Part shown: in pieces, positions 61-8,348 of the stretch
Layout of the letters: every line of letters starts with the position of its first letter
Position numbering within the stretch: position 1 is the stretch's first letter
Assembly: GCA_012512355.1 (NCBI GenBank)
Contig: JAAZEI010000112.1
Location: 1 to 10,087 of the forward strand
DNA length: 10,087 nucleotides
Direction: 5' to 3'
From: Clostridiales bacterium
GTDB lineage: Bacteria > Bacillota > Clostridia > Christensenellales > Aristaeellaceae
Made by a program: the position numbers and the translations under genes
The notes under the pieces: model-generated
Database searches by the model: none
What the model saw: only the letters and a program-made list of their open reading frames with translations
What the model was told of the DNA's origin: nothing

Positions 61-106
61 AAAAAAAACAAAACGCATCCTGTCATGTGAAAACAACAGG
101 ATGCGT
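61..106 (-). terminator. Intrinsic terminator of the grd operon
   Basis: Arms 73-83 (ACGCATCCTGT) and 96-106 (ACAGGATGCGT) form a perfect 11-bp stem with a 12-nt loop. On the minus strand the stem is followed by a T tract (TTTGTTTTTTTT, 72 to 61). It lies 18 nt after the grdD stop codon, which is what is expected for the end of the operon. Bases 1-60 beyond it show no gene or motif that I recognise. Confidence 0.93.
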
Positions 107-124
107 GGGTTGATTAGTTGAGGG

Positions 125-1285
125 TCAGCTGCTGAGGTAGCCACTCTTTGTGAGCGCATCAGTGGCTTGTTGCAGATTGTGCTGAGACACCAGGATGATG
201 GGGCCGGTACAGCCCATGCCTGATTGGGCATAGATGTTCTTTTCCCACAGAAGTTCAACAGCGCTTTCCAGATCCATGACATCAATCCCCGCAATATCTT
301 CGGTTACCACTTCAGTGGCAGGGGCTGTAGCAGGCTTGCGGGTTGCGGTTGATTTTTTATAGGACAGGCAGTTCTCCAGCAGATCTTTCAATCCGGCTTT
401 GTTGGCTAAGGAGAACTCTCTGGCAGCAGTTGCTTTGTAATCATTTTCTGCCAGGGCAGCGCCATAGCGCAGCGCACCTGCTATAACACTGGCACCGCTG
501 GCCCTGGAGACGATAAGCACCAGCTGATCATATTGCTCGCAGATGCCCGGACCATAGCCATAGCCAAGAGACTCATATTCCCCACCGCTGGCAAAGCTGG
601 ACAGCATCTTGATGACCAAATTGCCGGTGAGGCTGTCTGTCACCATCACATCAGGCGTGCCTGCCAGAATATCATTGCCGCGCATGATGCAGCCCCCATC
701 AGAGCGCTTGGAGCTGGCCAATTTGACTGGGTAGCCTTGTTCAATAAGTTTTTTCAAAATGATTTCCGTCTGCCTGGCCCCGTCAATGTTGAGGATGCCC
801 AGGCTAGGGTCTTCACACCCACAGGCTTTCGCTGCAATGATGCCATAGATGGCGCCAAGTACCATGGCCTGCAAACGATCTACTGATGCTGTGCCGGTTG
901 TAGTGGCGATAAACATCTCGCGTCCATTGGCAGGGATAACGGCACGGCCCACTGTAGCCACCCCGATGGGGAAGGGGTAGTGCATGGTGACGGCGCCTGA
1001 TATGTCACCATTTAGCAGCAGTTTCTCCATCAACTGCCGCGCTTCATCTTCGCTGTGAACAGGCAGGCAGCTTAAGTTCTCTGCCTGCAGGGTGCCGATG
1101 TAGACAACATCTACTCCTTGTTTTGCTGCAAGCATTGCGCCCTGCAGGGTATTTTCTTCGCCCAATTCACTGCCAAGACCGGTCAAAGCGATTTTGGGTC
1201 TCTCACCCATGTGCCCGCTTTCCAGTGCTTGCGCCATTTCCAGAAAGGTTTCATGAATCAGGGCTTGTACGTTTTTGTTAGGCAT
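125..1285 (-). CDS. grdD: Glycine reductase component C, alpha subunit GrdD
   Basis: This is the smaller subunit of component C, the cytoplasmic complex that turns the acetyl group delivered by selenoprotein A into acetyl phosphate. The protein has 386 aa, the normal family length. The N-terminal part (about 1-305) resembles the PlsX-like phosphate acyltransferase fold, with the motif ALTGLGSELGEENT near 33-46. An Ala/Thr/Pro/Lys-rich linker follows (about 310-330). The C-terminal part carries Cys359 in SGMGCTGP, which matches the acetyl-thioester cysteine reported for GrdD of amino-acid-fermenting clostridia. The ATG at 1285 is chosen because GGAGGAG precedes it closely; the open frame runs further upstream into grdC without a ribosome site. 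It overlaps the grdC end by 8 nt (ATGCCTAA), so translation is probably coupled. It stops with UGA just before the terminator. Confidence 0.95.
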   Translation of the reverse strand: MPNKNVQALIHETFLEMAQALESGHMGERPKIALTGLGSELGEENTLQGAMLAAKQGVDVVYIGTLQAENLSCLPVHSEDEARQLMEKLLLNGDISGAVTMHYPFPIGVATVGRAVIPANGREMFIATTTGTASVDRLQAMVLGAIYGIIAAKACGCEDPSLGILNIDGARQTEIILKKLIEQGYPVKLASSKRSDGGCIMRGNDILAGTPDVMVTDSLTGNLVIKMLSSFASGGEYESLGYGYGPGICEQYDQLVLIVSRASGASVIAGALRYGAALAENDYKATAAREFSLANKAGLKDLLENCLSYKKSTATRKPATAPATEVVTEDIAGIDVMDLESAVELLWEKNIYAQSGMGCTGPIILVSQHNLQQATDALTKSGYLSS

Positions 1286-2831
1286 GCTCTCCTCCTGCAG
1301 AGTCAGACAGAGAGTTTGCAAAATTTCGCAGAGCCTCTGCGATGAGTCCGCGAACTTCAGTTTTTGAAATACCCTGTTGCGGTGCTGCCAGTCCGCGGTT
1401 TGTTCGAAGAACAAAGGAAATGCCGTCAAACAGGTTGGTCATCCTGCCCAGGAACAGACTGCCCTTGCCGATGATCATCGCTGTTTTAATGATGCCGTCC
1501 AAAATATCCTGACGTGCGAAGCCAAGATAAGGTGCACCCGAAGGGATATGTCCCTGAGTGGGCGCCCAGCCAGGCATACCGTGCTTTAGGATAAAGCTGT
1601 TAAGCTCGCCGCGCTCAATTTCCCCGCTTTTGACAGCCAGCGCGGCAATCATTTTGAAATTTGACTGCGGCACATCCCCTGCGCCAGCAGGTTTGGTGAT
1701 ATCGGGGTTTTGCATCTCAGCTGCATATTTATCGATGTCAGCAATCTTCATGCCACCCTTTTCAAGCGGCGACAGCACCAGGCTGGTGATCACCGCCTGG
1801 GGAGAAGAGCCGGTGCCCACAGTATGACGGCCAATTAAATCCAGGTCAATTTCAGGATTTATGCCATCATTTTGGATGACAAGGGCGGCAAAGCCACCCA
1901 ATACATCTTCCAAAACCGGCATCTCTTTTTTGACATGGCTCTTGGCGTTCATTCCTAATTTTGCGGTAGATCCTCCTGAAGTGACAATCACCTTTTTGAA
2001 AGTTCCTGCCTTCACCAGAGAAGCCGCCAGGACCATTGCGTGAGCAGGGGCTGCGCAAAATGCGCGGATATCGCAGCCGGTGGCATTGCTGAGACCTGCG
2101 ATTTCGGCAGCTGCCTTGGCAAAGTTGCCGCCGCCCCGTTGGTTCATATCGCCGCAGGCTTCTTCGCTGCAATCTATCACATAATCGATTTCCTCGGTGT
2201 TGAGGCCGCTGCTGTGGATTAAATGCAGCAAGGACAGCACGCTGGAGGCCTTGCTCACCAGATTTTCGTGTACGACATGGGCCGTCAGATTGATATCCAC
2301 ATCGTGGGCTGGTTTGATATAACCCACAAGCTGACCCAGGTGATAAAGGCCCAGAGCATGTTCATGTTTTACTGCGTGCGCAATTTGATCTTCATCAATG
2401 CCTTCTTTTATTCGATCAAGGTTCTCGCTTCGCATCAAAGGATGTTTTGCCAGGGAGGGTTTTGTGGTGCTGACGAAATCGCGGGAGAGATACACCAGGT
2501 CAAACACATCGCAGATTTGGAGCAGCAGCAGGAATTCATCCTGCGGCATGATTTCCCCATAACGCCCAAATCGTTCAGCTTCATTGAGAGGGTTAGGATA
2601 CCAGGGCTGTTCACGAACAGATAATTCTTCGGGGGTGATGCTGCCGATATAGGTTTGATTGGGGGCATAACAGAGCGCATCCTCATAGCTGCGAATGTGT
2701 GCCGGGAGGGCCTTTAAATAGGCAGACTCCGGGTTGGCTGCCTGTTCGGTGGTTTGGGTTGAACCGTTATGGAGCACCATGTCGGGTACGTGCACCAAAA
2801 CATAGCTGGTTGCAGCCAGGACGCTGTTCAT
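1278..2831 (-). CDS. grdC: Glycine reductase component C, beta subunit GrdC
   Basis: This is the larger subunit of component C. Together with GrdD it takes the product from the Se-carboxymethyl group of GrdA and releases acetyl phosphate. The protein has 517 aa, close to the usual length of about 510. It looks like a FabH/thiolase-fold protein: DIRAFCAAPAHAM (254-266) aligns with the catalytic cysteine region of ketoacyl-ACP synthase III, which suggests Cys259 as the active cysteine, and a GHIPSG segment with His428 lies near the C-terminus. The alignment is by eye and the catalytic roles are inferred. The start is the ATG at 2831, with GGAGG 5 nt upstream; an in-frame ATG 21 nt earlier lacks a ribosome site. 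It follows grdA after a 147-nt gap with hairpins and overlaps grdD by 8 nt. Confidence 0.95.
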   Translation of the reverse strand: MNSVLAATSYVLVHVPDMVLHNGSTQTTEQAANPESAYLKALPAHIRSYEDALCYAPNQTYIGSITPEELSVREQPWYPNPLNEAERFGRYGEIMPQDEFLLLLQICDVFDLVYLSRDFVSTTKPSLAKHPLMRSENLDRIKEGIDEDQIAHAVKHEHALGLYHLGQLVGYIKPAHDVDINLTAHVVHENLVSKASSVLSLLHLIHSSGLNTEEIDYVIDCSEEACGDMNQRGGGNFAKAAAEIAGLSNATGCDIRAFCAAPAHAMVLAASLVKAGTFKKVIVTSGGSTAKLGMNAKSHVKKEMPVLEDVLGGFAALVIQNDGINPEIDLDLIGRHTVGTGSSPQAVITSLVLSPLEKGGMKIADIDKYAAEMQNPDITKPAGAGDVPQSNFKMIAALAVKSGEIERGELNSFILKHGMPGWAPTQGHIPSGAPYLGFARQDILDGIIKTAMIIGKGSLFLGRMTNLFDGISFVLRTNRGLAAPQQGISKTEVRGLIAEALRNFANSLSDSAGGEHA

Positions 2832-2867
2832 AATACCTCCAGTAGTGGTCATTTAGTATTTTTGAGT

Positions 2868-2978: not shown

Positions 2979-3449
2979 TCAGTACTTGCTGTGTTCGTTT
3001 CGGATGGCGGTCATTTCGCTGACGATATTATCGACATCCAGCACCATTTCCATCATACCGATTTGTTCGTCGTAGATTGTTTCGTCAAGTTGACTTTTGA
3101 TTGCTTCCTCGCACACATGATAAACGCTCAGTCCTAACTGGACTCCGGTCAATGGACCTGCGAATGTGGGATCACCGGCTGTGACGGTTTCCGCCGCAAG
3201 GCCTGCGGCTTCACCTTCTGCTGCACCCAGGATGACAATGATGTTCTCCGGGCCATACTTCTGTGCCAGATCTTTCACGCGCTTCTGATTTTCAAGGTCC
3301 ATTGCGCCCGCGCTCGTTCAGACAAAGCATTCCGTTGATGCAAACACGATCTGCGCACCAGTGCCTTTGAAGCACTCTTCGATAGCCGGGGCAGGGATAC
3401 CATCTCTGTCGCCGATGATGATGAGTTTTTTATTCTTCAGCAAGCTCAT
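2979..3449 (-). CDS. grdA: Glycine reductase selenoprotein A (GrdA), with in-frame UGA = Sec44
   Basis: GrdA is the small redox-active carrier of the glycine reductase complex. Its selenocysteine accepts the carboxymethyl group from component B, delivers it to component C, and is then reduced by thioredoxin. The full protein has 156 aa including Sec, the normal family length. It begins [17 protein letters not shown] and carries the family motif [15 protein letters not shown], with Cys41 and Sec44 as a CxxU pair. The UGA is at 3320-3318. A standard translation would cut the gene there and call a false start at the Met codon at 3302; the reading frame, family length and motif show one gene. The ATG at 3449 has GAGGAAAA upstream. 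The gene also ends in UGA. No convincing SECIS stem is visible by eye; only a weak GCG-CGGG-CGC pairing lies just after the Sec codon. Confidence 0.96.
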
Positions 3450-3539: not shown

Positions 3540-3857
3540 TTAGAGATGACGTTTGATCATATTTTCAATATTTTCGTGTGTGCAATCCTCTTTCACCAAT
3601 TCCTGAATTTTTTCACCGCCATGGTATATTGCCATCACGGGCAGTCCCAGCACCTTCTGCCCAATCGCCAGCCGGCGGGCTTTGGTGGTATTCAGGGACG
3701 CGAATTTGATTGAAGAGCCGTATCTTTCAGACATCTTTTCCACAAATGGCGTCAGCGCCTGACAGGGAACGCAGCTGTCGGAGTAGAAATCTACAAATAC
3801 TGTATCTTTGGACTGGATAACTTCTTCTTCGAAGTTTTCTTTTGTTAATTCAACCAT
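3540..3857 (-). CDS. trxA: Thioredoxin with CVPC active site
   Basis: This is a 105-aa cytoplasmic thioredoxin. It would reduce the oxidised selenoprotein A after each turnover of glycine reductase. The active site is SDSCVPC (Cys29 and Cys32), and the cis-proline is in LGLPV (Pro73). The common WCGPC is replaced: the Trp is Ser and the Gly is Val. CVPC sites are known from thioredoxins of glycine-reducing clostridia, so this is typical for the context. The start is the ATG at 3857 with GGAGG 4 nt before it; an in-frame ATG further up (3932) lies inside trxB and would add an unlikely leader. The gap to trxB is 13 nt, so the two are co-transcribed. Confidence 0.93.
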   Translation of the reverse strand: MVELTKENFEEEVIQSKDTVFVDFYSDSCVPCQALTPFVEKMSERYGSSIKFASLNTTKARRLAIGQKVLGLPVMAIYHGGEKIQELVKEDCTHENIENMIKRHL

Positions 3858-3870
3858 ATATCCTCCGTTC

Positions 3871-4878
3871 TTACCCCACAGGGGAGGTGTGCATGACAGC
3901 CAAAGGCTGCTGTAAAATTGTTTGCCCGGCATTCACCAGACAATATCCTTCGATATAGGCATTTGCTTCCATGGCGGCTATCGCGCCATCTGACGCTGCC
4001 GTAATCACCTGGCGCAAACTCTTTTCCCTGATGTCGCCTGCCGCAAACACACCTGGAATTTCAGTGTGCATATTGTCATCCGTGATGATATAGCCGTTTC
4101 TGAGATCCAGCTGTTTGGCGAACAGGCTGCTTTCGGGGATATAACCTACAAAGCAGAATACGCCGAAGGTGCCATCTTCTTCATTGGCGTGAATCACGGT
4201 TTCTTTGCCGCTCTTCAGGTTTTTGATGGTCATTTTTTCCAGGATGCCATCGCCCTCAAGCTGAGTGATCACACAATCCCACATGAAGTCCAATTTGGGG
4301 TTCTGAAAGGCTCTGTCCTGGATGGATTTGATGGCACGCAGCTGGTCCCGCCGATGGATGACCGTGACTTTACGGCCATATTTGGCCAGGTAGATGGCTT
4401 CTTCAACCGCTGTATCGCCGCCGCCAATGACATAGATGTCCATGTCCTCAAAGAAGGCCCCGTCGCAGGTGGCGCAATACGATACACCCTTGCCAATCAG
4501 TTCTTTTTCGCCAATGCATCCAATTGGACGGGGATGCGCGCCCGAGGCGATGATGATGGACCTGGCCGCATATTCGCCCTTTTTGCCTTTAAGTCGCTTA
4601 ATATCTCCTAGCAAATCAGCTTCAACTACCGTATCATAAACCTTTTCTGCGCCAAACCGTTCTGCCTGCTCAACCATCCGACCTACCAAAGAGGGGCCGC
4701 TTTCACCGAGTAGACTTCCCGGATAATTGTCTATTTCTGCTGTGATGACAATCTGGCCGCCGTCCTTTTCCTTTTCAATCAGGAGGGTACTGAGCCGAGC
4801 CCGTCCGGCGTAGATCGCTGCGGACAAACCAGCAGGGCCTGCGCCGATGATGATCACATCATAAATCTTGTCTTGCAT
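3871..4878 (-). CDS. trxB: Thioredoxin reductase (NADPH-dependent type)
   Basis: This flavoprotein passes electrons from NADPH through FAD and a disulfide to thioredoxin, here feeding glycine reductase. The protein has 335 aa. Visible parts are the FAD site GAGPAG (12-17), the redox-active CATC (135-138, in SYCATCDG), the NAD(P)H site GGGDTA (152-157), HRRDQLRA (175-182), whose arginines fit the NADPH 2'-phosphate contact, and the FAD motif GDI (281-283). The intact HRR motif argues against the ferredoxin-dependent type found in some clostridia. About 20 residues at the C-terminus (from about 314, ending TSPVG) go beyond the normal family end. GGGAGA precedes the ATG. It starts 20 nt after the grdB stop. 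Confidence 0.94.
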   Translation of the reverse strand: MQDKIYDVIIIGAGPAGLSAAIYAGRARLSTLLIEKEKDGGQIVITAEIDNYPGSLLGESGPSLVGRMVEQAERFGAEKVYDTVVEADLLGDIKRLKGKKGEYAARSIIIASGAHPRPIGCIGEKELIGKGVSYCATCDGAFFEDMDIYVIGGGDTAVEEAIYLAKYGRKVTVIHRRDQLRAIKSIQDRAFQNPKLDFMWDCVITQLEGDGILEKMTIKNLKSGKETVIHANEEDGTFGVFCFVGYIPESSLFAKQLDLRNGYIITDDNMHTEIPGVFAAGDIREKSLRQVITAASDGAIAAMEANAYIEGYCLVNAGQTILQQPLAVMHTSPVG

Positions 4879-4898: not shown

Positions 4899-6212
4899 TT
4901 ACTCAACCTCAAATACCGTCTGCTCAGTCACTTCGGTGGTCAGGGCATTGAGCGCAGTTTGGATGATGCGCCGTCTGATGCCTTTTTCTTCCTCCATGGA
5001 TAGCGCAGGGTTGCCAAGGGGATGGGGAATGGCGATGGCCGGAACAATCCGGTTAGCGCCAACCGTCAGAGAGATAGGAGTTACTGTACAAATGTGAACT
5101 ACGGGAATGCCCGCACGTTCAATTTCTTTAACCATCGTTGCGCCGCAACGTGTGCAGGTCCCTCACGTGGATGTCAGGATCACAGCCTGAACATTCTCCT
5201 TAAGCAATTCTTTGGAAAAATCTTCTGCAAAAGCTTTGGAAGACTTGACCGAAGTACCATTTCCCACAGTAGAGAAGAAGTAACGGTAGAGGGAACCAAT
5301 TTTGCCCTGGGCTTCAAATTCCCGCAGGGTATCCAGCGGCAGCACCCGATCGGCGTCAGCATTTGCATAGGAAGGATCATAGCCGCCATGCGCTGTGGCA
5401 TGGGTTGCCTGCGTCAGATCATTGATGCCATGCAAGTCATATTTGCCATACTTTGTGGCGCTTGAGCTCTCGATATGATCGGGGTTGCCCAGGGGTACGA
5501 TACCGCCTGACGTGACCAAAGCAATCTTGGCTGATCTGATATCCTTCAGGGCGGGTCGTGGATCTACCCGGTCAAAGTTTGGCATGGGGCACTCTGTGGT
5601 GAAGGATTCGCCTTTTAGCTTTTTGAGCAGCATATCCACTGCTCGTTTTGAGCCTCGTTCTTTTTCAAAGAGGTTTACGCGGATGCCTTGGGGGATATAG
5701 CCCTCTTCAACTGAAGATGCAATAGGTTCTTTGCGCGCCAATTTTAAAGCCAGGACAGCCATTTTTTTGACGGCGTCGCGCATGCCCACCGCGCTGTTGC
5801 GGGTGGATATGATGTACACAGAAGACTTGTACATATCGACGCCTGGATTTTCTTCGTACATGCCAGTGATGGCTGGGATGCCAAGCTGCTGCTGTACAGC
5901 TTCGGCCATGGCACCGCAGGCAACGCCATAGCGTCCTGCGTTAAACGCGGGTCCGGCAATGAACAGATCCGGTTTTGCATCTTCGACCATAGCCAATAAA
6001 TCCGCTTTGGCTTCCTCCATGTGTTCATTAAAATAGGAGTCGCCGCATATAACGGTTCTCACTATTTCTGCAGCCTCACCAAAAGCAGCGTTGAAAGCCA
6101 GACCCGGACCAATATGGCCTTCACGGTATTCGGGTTGTACATGCGCCATTTCCTCGCCGCCTATCTGGGCGAAGAACTGGTTAATATAATGAACCACCCT
6201 TATCTTGTTCAA
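4899..6212 (-). CDS. grdB: Glycine reductase component B selenoprotein (GrdB family), in-frame UGA = Sec350
   Basis: This is the substrate-handling selenoprotein of component B. Glycine bound to the pyruvoyl group of GrdE is cleaved and the carboxymethyl group is passed to GrdA. The full protein has 437 aa including Sec350; the UGA is at 5165-5163. The motif after it is U-GTC-TRC (Sec350, Cys353, Cys356), followed by the conserved stretch GATMVKEIERAG and VGANRIVPAIAIPHPLGNP. A standard translation would break the gene at the UGA. The start is TTG at 6212 with AGGAGAGG 7 nt upstream, giving MNKIRVVHYINQFF, the expected family N-terminus. The sarcosine and betaine paralogues GrdF and GrdH are close in sequence; the glycine form is preferred because the operon has grdX and a glycine riboswitch. 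A 31-nt gap separates it from grdE. Confidence 0.93.
5136..5150 (-). promoter_or_regulatory. SECIS-like hairpin in grdB
   Basis: On the minus strand CGTTGC and GCAACG form a perfect 6-bp stem around a GGC loop. It starts 12 nt after the selenocysteine UGA (5163-5165), with the loop 19 to 21 nt from it. This fits the usual distance of bacterial SECIS elements, which SelB binds to direct Sec insertion. The codons here also encode the conserved TRCGAT motif, so part of the pairing may come from protein constraint. Confidence 0.6.
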
Positions 6213-6243: not shown

Positions 6244-7524
6244 TTAACGTGCACTCAGATGAGCAAACCCTACTTCGCTGGTTGCTCCCAGTATTGCCTG
6301 GAGCTCTACATCAATGGAACCATCCGGGTGTTTGTTCTGATCCCATCCTCCGGCGATGATGCCGACATAATCTTCTGTTCCGATAACTTTGTCCATTTTG
6401 GGCAGTGTGATGACCTGGTTGGCATTGCCGCAGGTGACCAGCGCATCTGCTGATTCATGCGCGTCGGCCAGGGATTGGGAAGAACCATCTTGGCCGGCGT
6501 ATTCATCGGTGATGACAACAGTTTTGATACCTTTTGCTGATATTTTTCGGCAGTTCATCATCAGGTCAGTATCGGGGTTTCCAAAGCCTTCTTCAGATAT
6601 AATGACGCCATCCAGCGACAGGAACTCGCAAAGTTTCGCTGTCCAGTCAGAGGAGCGAACCTTGTCGGCCAGATAAACATTTTCGTTGGTGATAATCATG
6701 GCGGCAAAATTCAGATCCTTGCCGTGACGATGGTACAGATCATGAACAATGGGGTTGTTCTGATGAACGTAAGTTGTGTTTTTGTCGCAGGCAGACACGC
6801 AGTTTCCGGAAATAATCGCGCCGTCCATCACCTCCGTGGGCGAAATAATTGTAGGGACTATTCGCTTGGCATCCACGCCGTAGACATAGGTATCGTGCAT
6901 CAAGCCTTGGCTTTGCAGCATTTGTACATAACCCACGCGCGGCAGATTCGGGTATTTTTGATTGCCATCCATGAGCGATAGGGTTTCAAATACATCTATT
7001 TGATCGGGTTCCATGTTTCTGACCAACTCCCCCAAATATACAGCGGTTCTCAGTCCGGCTTCTCGAAGCGCACGCTCATGTTCATGCGGCTCTGTGCCTT
7101 CTTTGGGGCTGATAACCAACACCAGATTAAAAGTTTTTGAAAAAGGGGTGTATTGCGCGCCGATGCCGCTCATATCCAAGATGCCTTCCTGGAAACCGAC
7201 AATTTTACCGGTGGTGACGACTGCTGCTCCTTTGAGCACATGGGTTCTGCCGCTTCCTACTGTGTCGACAGGGGCGATCACTCCGGGGAAAACACCGCCG
7301 GAGCCTTTCACCTTCACTCGTGGCTCAATGACATCTTTGACCGGCGTGATGCGCACGTTTTCACCCGGTCTGGCCAGGTCAACCTGCACGCTGGCAAGGC
7401 GTTCATCTTTGAGGACAATGGCTTTTATCTCTTGTTTATTTACAACCAGGGTGCCATCTTTAACCAGGGATATTTCCCCAAATCGGATGTCAGTGATGTT
7501 AATGTAACCAAGTTCTAAACTCAA
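6244..7524 (-). CDS. grdE: Glycine reductase component B proprotein GrdE (pyruvoyl precursor)
   Basis: This proprotein is cleaved in the cell into two subunits of component B. Cleavage occurs before a cysteine that becomes a pyruvoyl group, which binds glycine as a Schiff base. The protein has 426 aa, the normal family length. The cleavage site is Asn241-Cys242 in SGNCVSACDKNT, the position known for this family. Other conserved blocks are VIEPRVKVKGSGGVFPG (65-81), HDTYVYGVDAK (210-220), EEGFGNPDTDLMMNC (311-325) and ITLPKMDKVIG (372-382). The start is TTG at 7524: GGAGG lies 8 nt before it, no in-frame ATG is near, and the resulting N-terminus MSLELGYINI fits the family. It follows grdX after a 95-nt gap with a hairpin. 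Sarcosine and betaine homologues (GrdG, GrdI) are similar; the context favours GrdE. Confidence 0.94.
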   Translation of the reverse strand: MSLELGYINITDIRFGEISLVKDGTLVVNKQEIKAIVLKDERLASVQVDLARPGENVRITPVKDVIEPRVKVKGSGGVFPGVIAPVDTVGSGRTHVLKGAAVVTTGKIVGFQEGILDMSGIGAQYTPFSKTFNLVLVISPKEGTEPHEHERALREAGLRTAVYLGELVRNMEPDQIDVFETLSLMDGNQKYPNLPRVGYVQMLQSQGLMHDTYVYGVDAKRIVPTIISPTEVMDGAIISGNCVSACDKNTTYVHQNNPIVHDLYHRHGKDLNFAAMIITNENVYLADKVRSSDWTAKLCEFLSLDGVIISEEGFGNPDTDLMMNCRKISAKGIKTVVITDEYAGQDGSSQSLADAHESADALVTCGNANQVITLPKMDKVIGTEDYVGIIAGGWDQNKHPDGSIDVELQAILGATSEVGFAHLSAR

Positions 7525-7619: not shown

Positions 7620-8045
7620 TTAGTTTGGAGTATTTGGAGCAGCTGTATGAGAGCGCTCCAAGTTCATCCCTTCAATTGCTGAAAGAATTAGCGTCAGATC
7701 GATGAGTTGAAAATCTTTCAGTATATTTGGCGTTGCCTGATGTGTGATGAGCGCAGAGCATCTGCACAAAGCAATGCTGTGCTCTATCATCATCAGTGAA
7801 TCTGTACAAAGCGGCTTTTGTGCCAAGTCGGACAAACCTATGGATTTATAAGGAGTTTGGTTTGGCTTGATACTGCCGGAAAGCGGATGTGTACAGAGGC
7901 GATAGCCAAGGTGTACAAGGTCCCGCACCTTCATCATCAGCTCGTTAAGTGTCCCTGCGCAATAATCCACTGCACAGGCCTTTCGAACATCCAACGATTG
8001 CTCAACCAGATGATTATTTGTCAGCACCCTCACCTGTTTATCCAT
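7620..8045 (-). CDS. grdX: GrdX family protein, accessory to glycine reductase
   Basis: This is a 141-aa soluble protein of the GrdX family, usually encoded at the head of glycine reductase operons. Its function is not established. The family signature is clear: VRVLTNN (5-11), KVRDLVHLGYRLCTHPLSGS (39-58), KPNQTPYKS (60-68) and a C-terminal DFQLIDLTLI (111-120). The start is the ATG at 8045, because homologues begin a few residues before the LTNN motif. The open frame runs up to 8315 but that part is the riboswitch RNA. The purine-rich GAAAGG ends only one base before the ATG, an unusually short spacing, so initiation may be weak or need an alternative site. It has no signal peptide or membrane segment. 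It is the first gene behind the riboswitch. Confidence 0.88.
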   Translation of the reverse strand: MDKQVRVLTNNHLVEQSLDVRKACAVDYCAGTLNELMMKVRDLVHLGYRLCTHPLSGSIKPNQTPYKSIGLSDLAQKPLCTDSLMMIEHSIALCRCSALITHQATPNILKDFQLIDLTLILSAIEGMNLERSHTAAPNTPN

Positions 8046-8098
8046 GCCTTTCAGAAATACAAAATCAGAATACCTATTCTCTGTGTAAAACCTGAAAG
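8046..8098 (-). promoter_or_regulatory. Riboswitch expression platform before grdX (anti-Shine-Dalgarno pairing)
   Basis: CTTTCAG in the core of aptamer 2 (8098 to 8092) is a perfect complement of CTGAAAG (8054 to 8048), which directly precedes the grdX ATG; a G-U pair extends it to 8 bp. In the ligand-bound aptamer CTTTC instead pairs with GAGAG of P2, which would free the ribosome site. A second option is the hairpin AGAAT-AGGT-ATTCT (8080 to 8067), which shares two bases with P1 of aptamer 2. Both predict that glycine turns expression on. This is inferred from pairing only. Confidence 0.55.
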
Positions 8099-8255
8099 AT
8101 TCTCGCGCGTTTGCGCGATTGCTTCGACGGTGACTGTGCTCTCCAGAGTTCTGTCCCGTTTTCAGTCCTTTTTCCTGAGATCTTCGTGCCCACCCGGTAG
8201 GAGGATAAGCACTTATTCCTTCGGCAGCAATACTTGTTGCATTCTTCTGAAAACG
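8079..8255 (-). promoter_or_regulatory. Tandem glycine riboswitch (two aptamers)
   Basis: Read on the minus strand, this leader matches the glycine riboswitch. Aptamer 1 (8255 to 8157) is closed by a perfect 9-bp P1 (CGTTTTCAG with CTGAAAACG) and holds TGCCGAAGGAA and ATCTCAGGAAAAAGGACTG. Aptamer 2 (8148 to 8079) is closed by CTCTG/CAGAG and holds TGGAGAG, ACCGTCGAAGCAA, a TCGCGC/GCGCGA hairpin and AATCTTTCAGG. An 8-nt linker (GGACAGAA) joins them, as in known tandem forms, and the leader TGTCTGG can pair with it to give the leader-linker kink-turn. The target would be the whole grd operon, so glycine would induce its own breakdown. Aptamer 1 has a weak P2, see findings. Confidence 0.87.
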
Positions 8256-8312
8256 ATCAACCAGACAATATTTAGTTCTTATGGCAAGTATATGATATTG
8301 GCAGCAATACTT
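8223..8312 (-). repeat. 13-bp direct repeat around the operon promoter
   Basis: AAGTATTGCTGCC occurs twice on the minus strand, at 8312 to 8300 and 8235 to 8223, with 77 bp between equivalent positions. The first copy lies in the spacer of the candidate promoter; the second lies in the P3 region of aptamer 1. It could be a duplicated regulatory site or the scar of a local duplication. Confidence 0.6.
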
Positions 8313-8315
8313 CAA
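8287..8315 (-). promoter_or_regulatory. Candidate sigma-A promoter of the grd operon
   Basis: On the minus strand a -35 box TTGAAG (8315 to 8310) is followed after exactly 17 nt by a -10 box TATACT (8292 to 8287). Transcription would start near 8280, about 25 nt before aptamer 1, which suits a riboswitch leader. It is preferred over the alternative upstream because of the spacer and position. Confidence 0.55.
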
Positions 8316-8318
8316 GTG

Positions 8319-8348
8319 ATTATTTTGATAAACTTAAAATTTTGTCAA
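8319..8348 (-). promoter_or_regulatory. Alternative candidate promoter of the grd operon
   Basis: A perfect -35 box TTGACA (8348 to 8343) is followed after 18 nt by AATAAT (8324 to 8319), five of six matches to the -10 consensus. It lies 29 nt upstream of the other candidate; one or both could be used. Confidence 0.4.

Follow-up and report, generated by a model that had tools for sequence, protein, structure and literature searches.

Among the systems described so far, the grd operon of C. difficile (CD2357-48) is alike in its genes, with a glycine riboswitch ahead of grd genes that include trxA and trxB. There, glycine is reported to induce grd transcription (PMC11477304, PMC10880999), so the novelty that the first-pass annotation implied for this association is lower. 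The two loci differ in that the published glycine effect is on transcription, while the lineage described below has no strong terminator. In mechanism, a parallel is offered by the gcvT gene of N. gonorrhoeae, which carries a translational tandem glycine riboswitch whose mechanism is reported to be supported by mutation (PMC13104608). In its OFF state the pocket strand of aptamer 2 is paired with the region before the start codon; moreover, aptamer 2 is the less conserved one, and the element is described as having no terminator (PMC13104608). However, it is a proteobacterial gcvT element without a kink-turn/P0, with a 73-nt P3 loop and, by the same account, with sRNA control too, whereas the target studied here is grdX and P0 is present. 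The tandem glycine riboswitch of B. subtilis is likewise an ON switch in which aptamer 1 is dominant, and mutation of its aptamer-2 pocket is reported to leave regulation intact (PMC5666159), but its platform is an intrinsic terminator, as also seems to be the case for gcvT leaders in the window's own lineage. Finally, the NAD+-I (nadA) riboswitch also has tandem domains, the second of which bears the ribosome-binding site and is reported to need far more ligand, although it responds to a different ligand and is an OFF switch (PMC7708056).

The window, that is, the whole stretch of DNA analyzed here, comprises 10,087 nucleotides of a Clostridiales bacterium. Eight genes on one strand follow the riboswitch, namely grdX, a grdE-type gene, grdB, trxB, trxA, grdA, grdC and grdD. 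The promoter, the genes and the end of the operon are listed below (L numbers denote compared leaders or loci, WIN the window).

8287 to 8315, minus strand: sigma-70-type promoter TTGAAG-17-TATACT, from a consensus scan; similar hexamers with a 17-nt spacer are seen by eye in L006 and L007.
7620 to 8033, minus strand: grdX, likeliest start GTG at 8033; NF038093, 102.7 bits (cut-off 40).
6244 to 7524, minus strand: grdE-type subunit, with a TTG start and its own GAAGGAGG site; best NCBIfam model NF040793, 663.3 bits, below the cut-off of 780.
4899 to 6212, minus strand: grdB, a selenoprotein gene with an in-frame TGA; TIGR01917, 701.3 bits (cut-off 602.2).
3871 to 4878, minus strand: trxB; TIGR01292, 353.9 bits (cut-off 343.45).
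3540 to 3932, minus strand: trxA; NF047697, 152.2 bits (cut-off 140); frame given from the first possible start, profile match from residue 26.
2979 to 3437, minus strand: grdA, a selenoprotein gene with a TGA read as Sec; NF040748, 266.5 bits (cut-off 130).
1278 to 2852, minus strand: grdC (reductase component C beta); NF040746, 777 bits (cut-off 450).
125 to 1429, minus strand: grdD (component C alpha); NF040747, 527.7 bits (cut-off 350); frame given from the first possible start, profile match from residue 55.
73 to 106, minus strand: likely operon terminator, a 14-pair stem followed by TTTTGTTTTTT.

The riboswitch had been placed between a promoter and grdX, and a promoter-like site and a grdX gene indeed lie on its two sides. 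From this promoter, the transcription start would fall near 8280. A better consensus match, TTGACA at 8348, is absent from L006 and L007 by eye. The gene upstream encodes a 2-oxoacid:acceptor oxidoreductase beta subunit, and a strong hairpin (8440-8403) lies after it. For grdX itself, the candidate ATG 8045 was rejected as the likeliest start, since AAAGG would be only 1 nt away from it and L007 has an in-frame TGA 6 nt before the corresponding GTG (by eye), which rules out a start further upstream in that leader. A SECIS_4 match (5125-5162, 60.1 bits, gathering score 38) adjoins the TGA of grdB, and a sub-threshold RNA-OUT match at 68-108 (30 of 41 bits) is in fact the hairpin of the operon terminator. 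For the two component-B subunits the best-scoring models are those of sarcosine reductase, both below cut-off (GrdG, 663.3 against 780 at 6244-7524; GrdF, 702.4 against 800 at 4899-6212), and the GrdB model TIGR01917 for glycine reductase is over its cut-off (701.3 bits); whether the substrate of component B is glycine or sarcosine is worth a check. In two other genomes, genes for selenocysteine tRNA are located at most about 700 bases upstream of grdX (L061:955-1048 and L080:744-836).

We compared the window with seven related grdX leaders, which together form a lineage of eight from two genera (WIN, L006, L007, L008, L009, L010, L051 and L052). The sensing part of the leader consists of the following elements.

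8262 to 8264, minus strand: P0/kink-turn leader strand CUG, pairing with the linker CAG at 8153-8151 in the RF03166 alignment and in the free fold.
8157 to 8255, minus strand: aptamer 1, with a 9-bp P1 and intact pocket strands CCGAAG (8224-8219) and AUCUCAGG (8181-8174); RF00504, 46.3 bits.
8079 to 8148, minus strand: aptamer 2, with a 5-bp P1, the pocket adenines replaced by UC (8127-8126) and the bulged U of P3a kept; RF00504, 32.4 bits.

The first-pass annotation had placed two glycine aptamers on the minus strand here and had tied this claim to an RF00504 match above the gathering threshold. In the covariance-model search both aptamers exceed the gathering score of 32 (8153-8259 for aptamer 1 and 8071-8156 for aptamer 2, both on the minus strand), and the downstream genes, grdX and the grd genes, are those of glycine metabolism. 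The P1 lengths it gave were also right, with pairs between 8255-8247 and 8165-8157 in aptamer 1 and between 8148-8144 and 8083-8079 in aptamer 2. Its reading of the core fared less well. GGAGAG, claimed for both aptamers, occurs in aptamer 2, but aptamer 1 reads AGAAGA, a G-to-A change in J1/2 found in the window alone, where the seven relatives have GGAGA. The CGAAG assigned to aptamer 2 is out of register and mostly belongs to a P3a strand rather than to the glycine pocket. When the register is set by the P3a pairs (GAAG with CUU and, past the bulged U, C), aptamer 2 reads CCG-UC-GAAG against the canonical CCG-AA-GGAG. Its relatives have CCG-GC-GAAG in four cases (L006, L007, L008 and L051) and CCG-AA-GAAG in three (L009, L010 and L052). 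Thus AA and the bulged U are both present in aptamer 1, whose pocket strands are invariant in all eight leaders, while aptamer 2 retains the bulged U, a residue reported as crucial for glycine binding (PMC13104608), and has UC in place of AA. The 281-nt leader is also more stable in folding than each of 200 shuffles (z -2.58). That this is a real glycine riboswitch ahead of a glycine reductase operon is well supported; it is predicted to be an ON switch, with glycine, on these computations, as its presumed ligand.

The replaced pocket raises the question of the ligand. Aptamer 2 could be a variant akin to glycine-GGAnGA (RF03166) with a changed ligand, so that the element would not respond to glycine alone. 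The pocket adenines are replaced in five of the eight lineage leaders; six other grdX leaders (L018, L061, L082, L090, L106 and L117) read AC, L061 in both aptamers, and three of these (L061, L082 and L117) belong to the group that is sister to the lineage, with weak support (87/76). C is likewise the second-position base of the RF03166 consensus, and glycine-riboswitch variants that reject glycine are on record (PMC9481103, citing Weinberg 2017). However, the RF03166 tandem model, which spans 8077-8264 with an E value of 9.5e-12, reaches 63.9 bits where its gathering score is 110, and aptamer 1 is canonical, whereas the model consensus has an altered pocket in both aptamers: aptamer 1 keeps AA and has a bulged U where that consensus has A. 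The model also scores grdX leaders with canonical pockets highly (L031, 114.3 bits), and the aptamer-2 pockets of gcvT leaders drift too in these genera, which suggests decay. We consequently rejected RF03166 as the true class and regard a changed ligand as very unlikely. Two side observations concern this model and the AC pockets. Many tandem riboswitches whose pockets are canonical score higher with RF03166 than with RF00504, the highest value being 114.3 bits at L031:1244-1417, and the RF03166 model can thus mislabel ordinary tandem glycine riboswitches. The six AC-pocket leaders, from Oscillospiraceae-type and other genomes, keep a terminator, and their pockets may reflect recurrent erosion or a change of specificity.

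GrdX is present in 91 of the 398 sampled genomes of the phylum. Glycine-clan RNAs were found upstream in 21 of the best-scoring 30 grdX loci at E values up to 0.05 (14/20 and 7/10; L032 and L033 among the 30 have identical leaders), and in 20/20 of the named grdX loci scanned, a set drawn from 80 of 300 matches and not at random. Glycine riboswitches are thus frequent in the sampled grdX leaders, as befits an association already known. In the family of the window, GrdX occurs in 12 of 308 genomes, a count that includes the genome of the window. Eight of these have the tandem riboswitch of the lineage, and two (L012 and L013) have a riboswitch with a terminator. A motif search found no riboswitch in L044 and L045, both from one genus, and Rfam gave no glycine match for L011, which is the L044 locus.

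We then turned to the region between aptamer 2 and grdX. From 123 extracted grdX leaders, 23 without the aptamer motif and 9 duplicates were removed, leaving 91 for comparison. The motif filter is imperfect (L067, one of the 23, has an Rfam match), and the pocket-motif heuristic gave some spurious rows (e.g., L010, L052, L064 and L072), so the named rows were read by eye. A terminator was defined as a hairpin of -11 kcal/mol or lower followed by a U-tract, and the tests were made with the ATG start for the window and L006 and then repeated with GTG. By this definition, 81 of the 83 leaders from outside the lineage have a terminator after the riboswitch, and 0/8 of those from inside it do; when the 83 regions were shuffled once each, 2 terminators appeared. 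In the two outside leaders that lack one, L080 and L083, the one-hairpin rule seems by eye to have missed a stem-loop and the U-run behind it, and the true count outside may be 83/83. No strong intrinsic terminator was found between riboswitch and grdX in the eight lineage leaders, and the window thus falls outside the terminator-type grd/gcv ON riboswitches. Under a laxer U-tract rule, a hairpin followed by a poor U-tract appears in L010 (-10.9 kcal/mol) and in L052 (-17.8 kcal/mol), where weak termination may occur; L007 has one of -10.2 kcal/mol under either rule.

Transcription attenuation must still be weighed here, since terminators are the rule in the other grdX leaders. It would require the short CAGAG...UUCUG hairpin with AUUUUGUAUUU to act as a weak intrinsic terminator, by which glycine would control the whole operon, as is presumably the case in leaders that have a terminator. 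This hairpin uses the same P1 strand of aptamer 2, and CAGAG...CUCUG-G-UUUU persists in L008 and L051. But the hairpin is weak (-3.5 kcal/mol in the window; -6.1 in L008 and -6.6 in L051 under the laxer rule) and its U-tract is broken, whereas the gcvT leaders of the same genera, read by eye, have a GC-rich hairpin in 6/6 cases, followed in four by an evident T-rich tail. Attenuation is accordingly improbable in our judgment.

Instead, the leader is predicted to hide the ribosome-binding site of grdX, by means of three short elements.

8091 to 8098, minus strand: aptamer-2 pocket strand CUUUCAGG, predicted to double as anti-ribosome-binding-site strand; pairs with CUGAAAG in the free fold.
8066 to 8070, minus strand: UUCUG, alternative partner of the aptamer-2 P1 3' strand CAGAG (8083-8079), forming the inner helix of the OFF hairpin in minimum-energy folds.
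8047 to 8054, minus strand: CUGAAAGG, likely grdX ribosome-binding site, hidden in the predicted OFF state.

CUUUCAG (8098-8092) and CUGAAAG (8054-8048) of the window can form 7 bp with each other, the same complementarity between aptamer-2 pocket strand and ribosome-binding region that marks the N. gonorrhoeae type. The free fold of the window leader (-74.4 kcal/mol) contains both this helix and the CAGAG/UUCUG helix, and GAAAGG is paired with the pocket strand at a mean probability of 0.83. When aptamer 2 is forced to form, the secondary-structure energy is -62.0 kcal/mol, 12.4 above the free fold, and AAAGG becomes unpaired with a probability of 0.98-1.0. The mean pair probability is 0.82-0.83 in six of the eight lineage leaders, the others being L007 (0.03) and L052 (0.22), while it averages 0.035 in the 83 other grdX leaders, of which five exceed 0.3 (L013, L016, L083, L090 and L109).

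The pairing partner varies by subgroup and still pairs with the invariant strand: it is CUGAAAG in the window and L006, CUUGAAAG in L008 and L051, and CUGAC-AG-GAAAG in L010, where a longer strand ending in GUCAG is used. The number of dinucleotide shuffles, of 500, that reach the duplex energy is 15 for the window, 21 for L006, 6 for L008, 3 for L051, 13 for L010, 92 each for L009 and L052 and 256 for L007. In other words, five leaders lie beyond about 96% of their shuffles, two (L009 and L052) are weak, and L007, which belongs to the same genus as the window and has a mismatch in the pairing, shows nothing. In L009 the strand pairs with GGAAGG and a GGGAGG nearer the ATG lies outside the helix, so that its pair probability of 0.83 may concern the wrong ribosome-binding site. 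The spacing of 13 nt from AAAGG to the GTG of the window is also long and weighs against the translational model, as does the J1/2 change in aptamer 1 of the window. An alignment of this region for covariation counts was set aside because indels shift the ribosome-binding sites against one another.

Taking these results together, we consider it likely that this tandem glycine riboswitch works on grdX as a translational ON switch. In the absence of glycine, aptamer 2 would open in its 3' half, its CUUUCAG would pair with the grdX site CUGAAAG and the P1 3' strand CAGAG with UUCUG, giving a single long hairpin that would block ribosomes. Glycine would bind mainly to the intact aptamer 1, and the tandem fold would keep aptamer 2 closed through P0 and inter-aptamer contacts. 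With aptamer 2 closed, the pocket strand and P1 would be occupied inside the aptamer, and the ribosome-binding site would be free. Both aptamers and the two alternative pairings are computed, and we infer the direction of the switch and the role of aptamer 1. A gap of 12.4 kcal/mol is much for a ligand at equilibrium; tertiary contacts or folding during transcription must therefore help. The eroded pocket of aptamer 2 need not abolish function, since the corresponding mutation is reported to be tolerated in B. subtilis. At the level of titles and abstracts, in a literature whose subscription part was largely out of reach, we found no earlier report of a translational grd riboswitch, and by analogy the arrangement in the window and that in Neisseria look convergent.

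The phylogeny of GrdX bears on how often this change took place. In a tree of 88 rows (without L012, L013, L019, L043 and L120) the eight form one group with support 99/96, and in a tree of 38 chosen rows that includes L012 and L013 they again form one group (99/95), so that a single change of platform suffices. Their sister group (87/76, weak) comprises Oscillospiraceae-type loci with terminators (L061, L082, L104, L117 and L119). The idea that the platform changed inside one bacterial family was dropped, because the lineage is not closest to the other GrdX proteins of its family (L012, L013, L044 and L045) but clusters, with weak support, with those Oscillospiraceae-type loci. Different families may have exchanged the grd operon.

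The aptamer-2 pocket strand is the same in 8/8 grd leaders though the pocket adenines are lost in 5/8. By comparison, 5 variants of the strand occur among the 6 leaders of gcvT from these two genera (gcvT was identified by NF001567, 431.5 bits, in the window's genome, and the other five were recognized from the sequence start). In these few species, the pattern is what one would expect if the grd strand were kept because it pairs with the ribosome-binding site, and not solely because of glycine. A degraded relic without regulatory effect, to which the eroded aptamer 2 and the one J1/2 change of the window might point, is scarcely credible, for long invariant blocks persist in both aptamers across the 8 species, and P0 and the platform pairing are kept in most. 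The gcvT element of the window's genome is a second tandem glycine riboswitch (G000 contig C53:9452-9623, L001), with a GC-rich hairpin and a TATTTT tail, whose aptamer 2 reaches only 27.3 bits; five relatives have a similar arrangement, the second aptamer being without a match at E 0.01 in four of them and scoring 41.9 bits in the fifth (G088).

The first-pass annotation had proposed that one element controls all eight genes. The riboswitch does lie before the operon, but control of the whole operon is not established: the predicted platform hides the grdX site, there is no strong terminator, and grdE starts 95 nt past grdX behind its own strong GAAGGAGG site. As the platform would act on the grdX site and grdE has its own ribosome-binding site, control of eight genes is unproven. 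On the translational model direct control would be limited to grdX, and the other seven genes could be affected only indirectly, via Rho polarity or mRNA stability. In one such version, blocked translation would lead to Rho-dependent termination in grdX and thereby shut the downstream genes too. The genome has a rho gene (536.3 bits, cut-off 509.45), and there is a reported precedent in the Mbox of M. tuberculosis (PMC12810186); however, N. gonorrhoeae gcvT is reported to have kept its glycine response under Rho inhibition (PMC13104608). We think this addition rather unlikely, and it is compatible with the translational ON switch, a refinement of it and not a full rival. More generally, it should not be taken for granted that a riboswitch ahead of an operon controls all of it.

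A fuller version of the translational model can be put forward only tentatively. Aptamer 2 would be the moving part and no longer a sensor, aptamer 1 alone would read glycine, and the pocket strand would have been kept as the anti-ribosome-binding-site strand. Only the translation of grdX would be switched, coupling GrdX to glycine apart from the reductase subunits, and the arrangement would have arisen once, replacing the terminator of other grd leaders.

In summary, the locus carries a real glycine riboswitch in a known context, together with what is predicted to be a lineage-specific translational platform resembling that of Neisseria. Here a riboswitch would keep its sensor and swap its output, with the terminator-type grd leaders as outgroup and the terminator-type gcvT leaders of the same genera as control. 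Should this be confirmed, the mechanism known from Neisseria would have appeared here independently.
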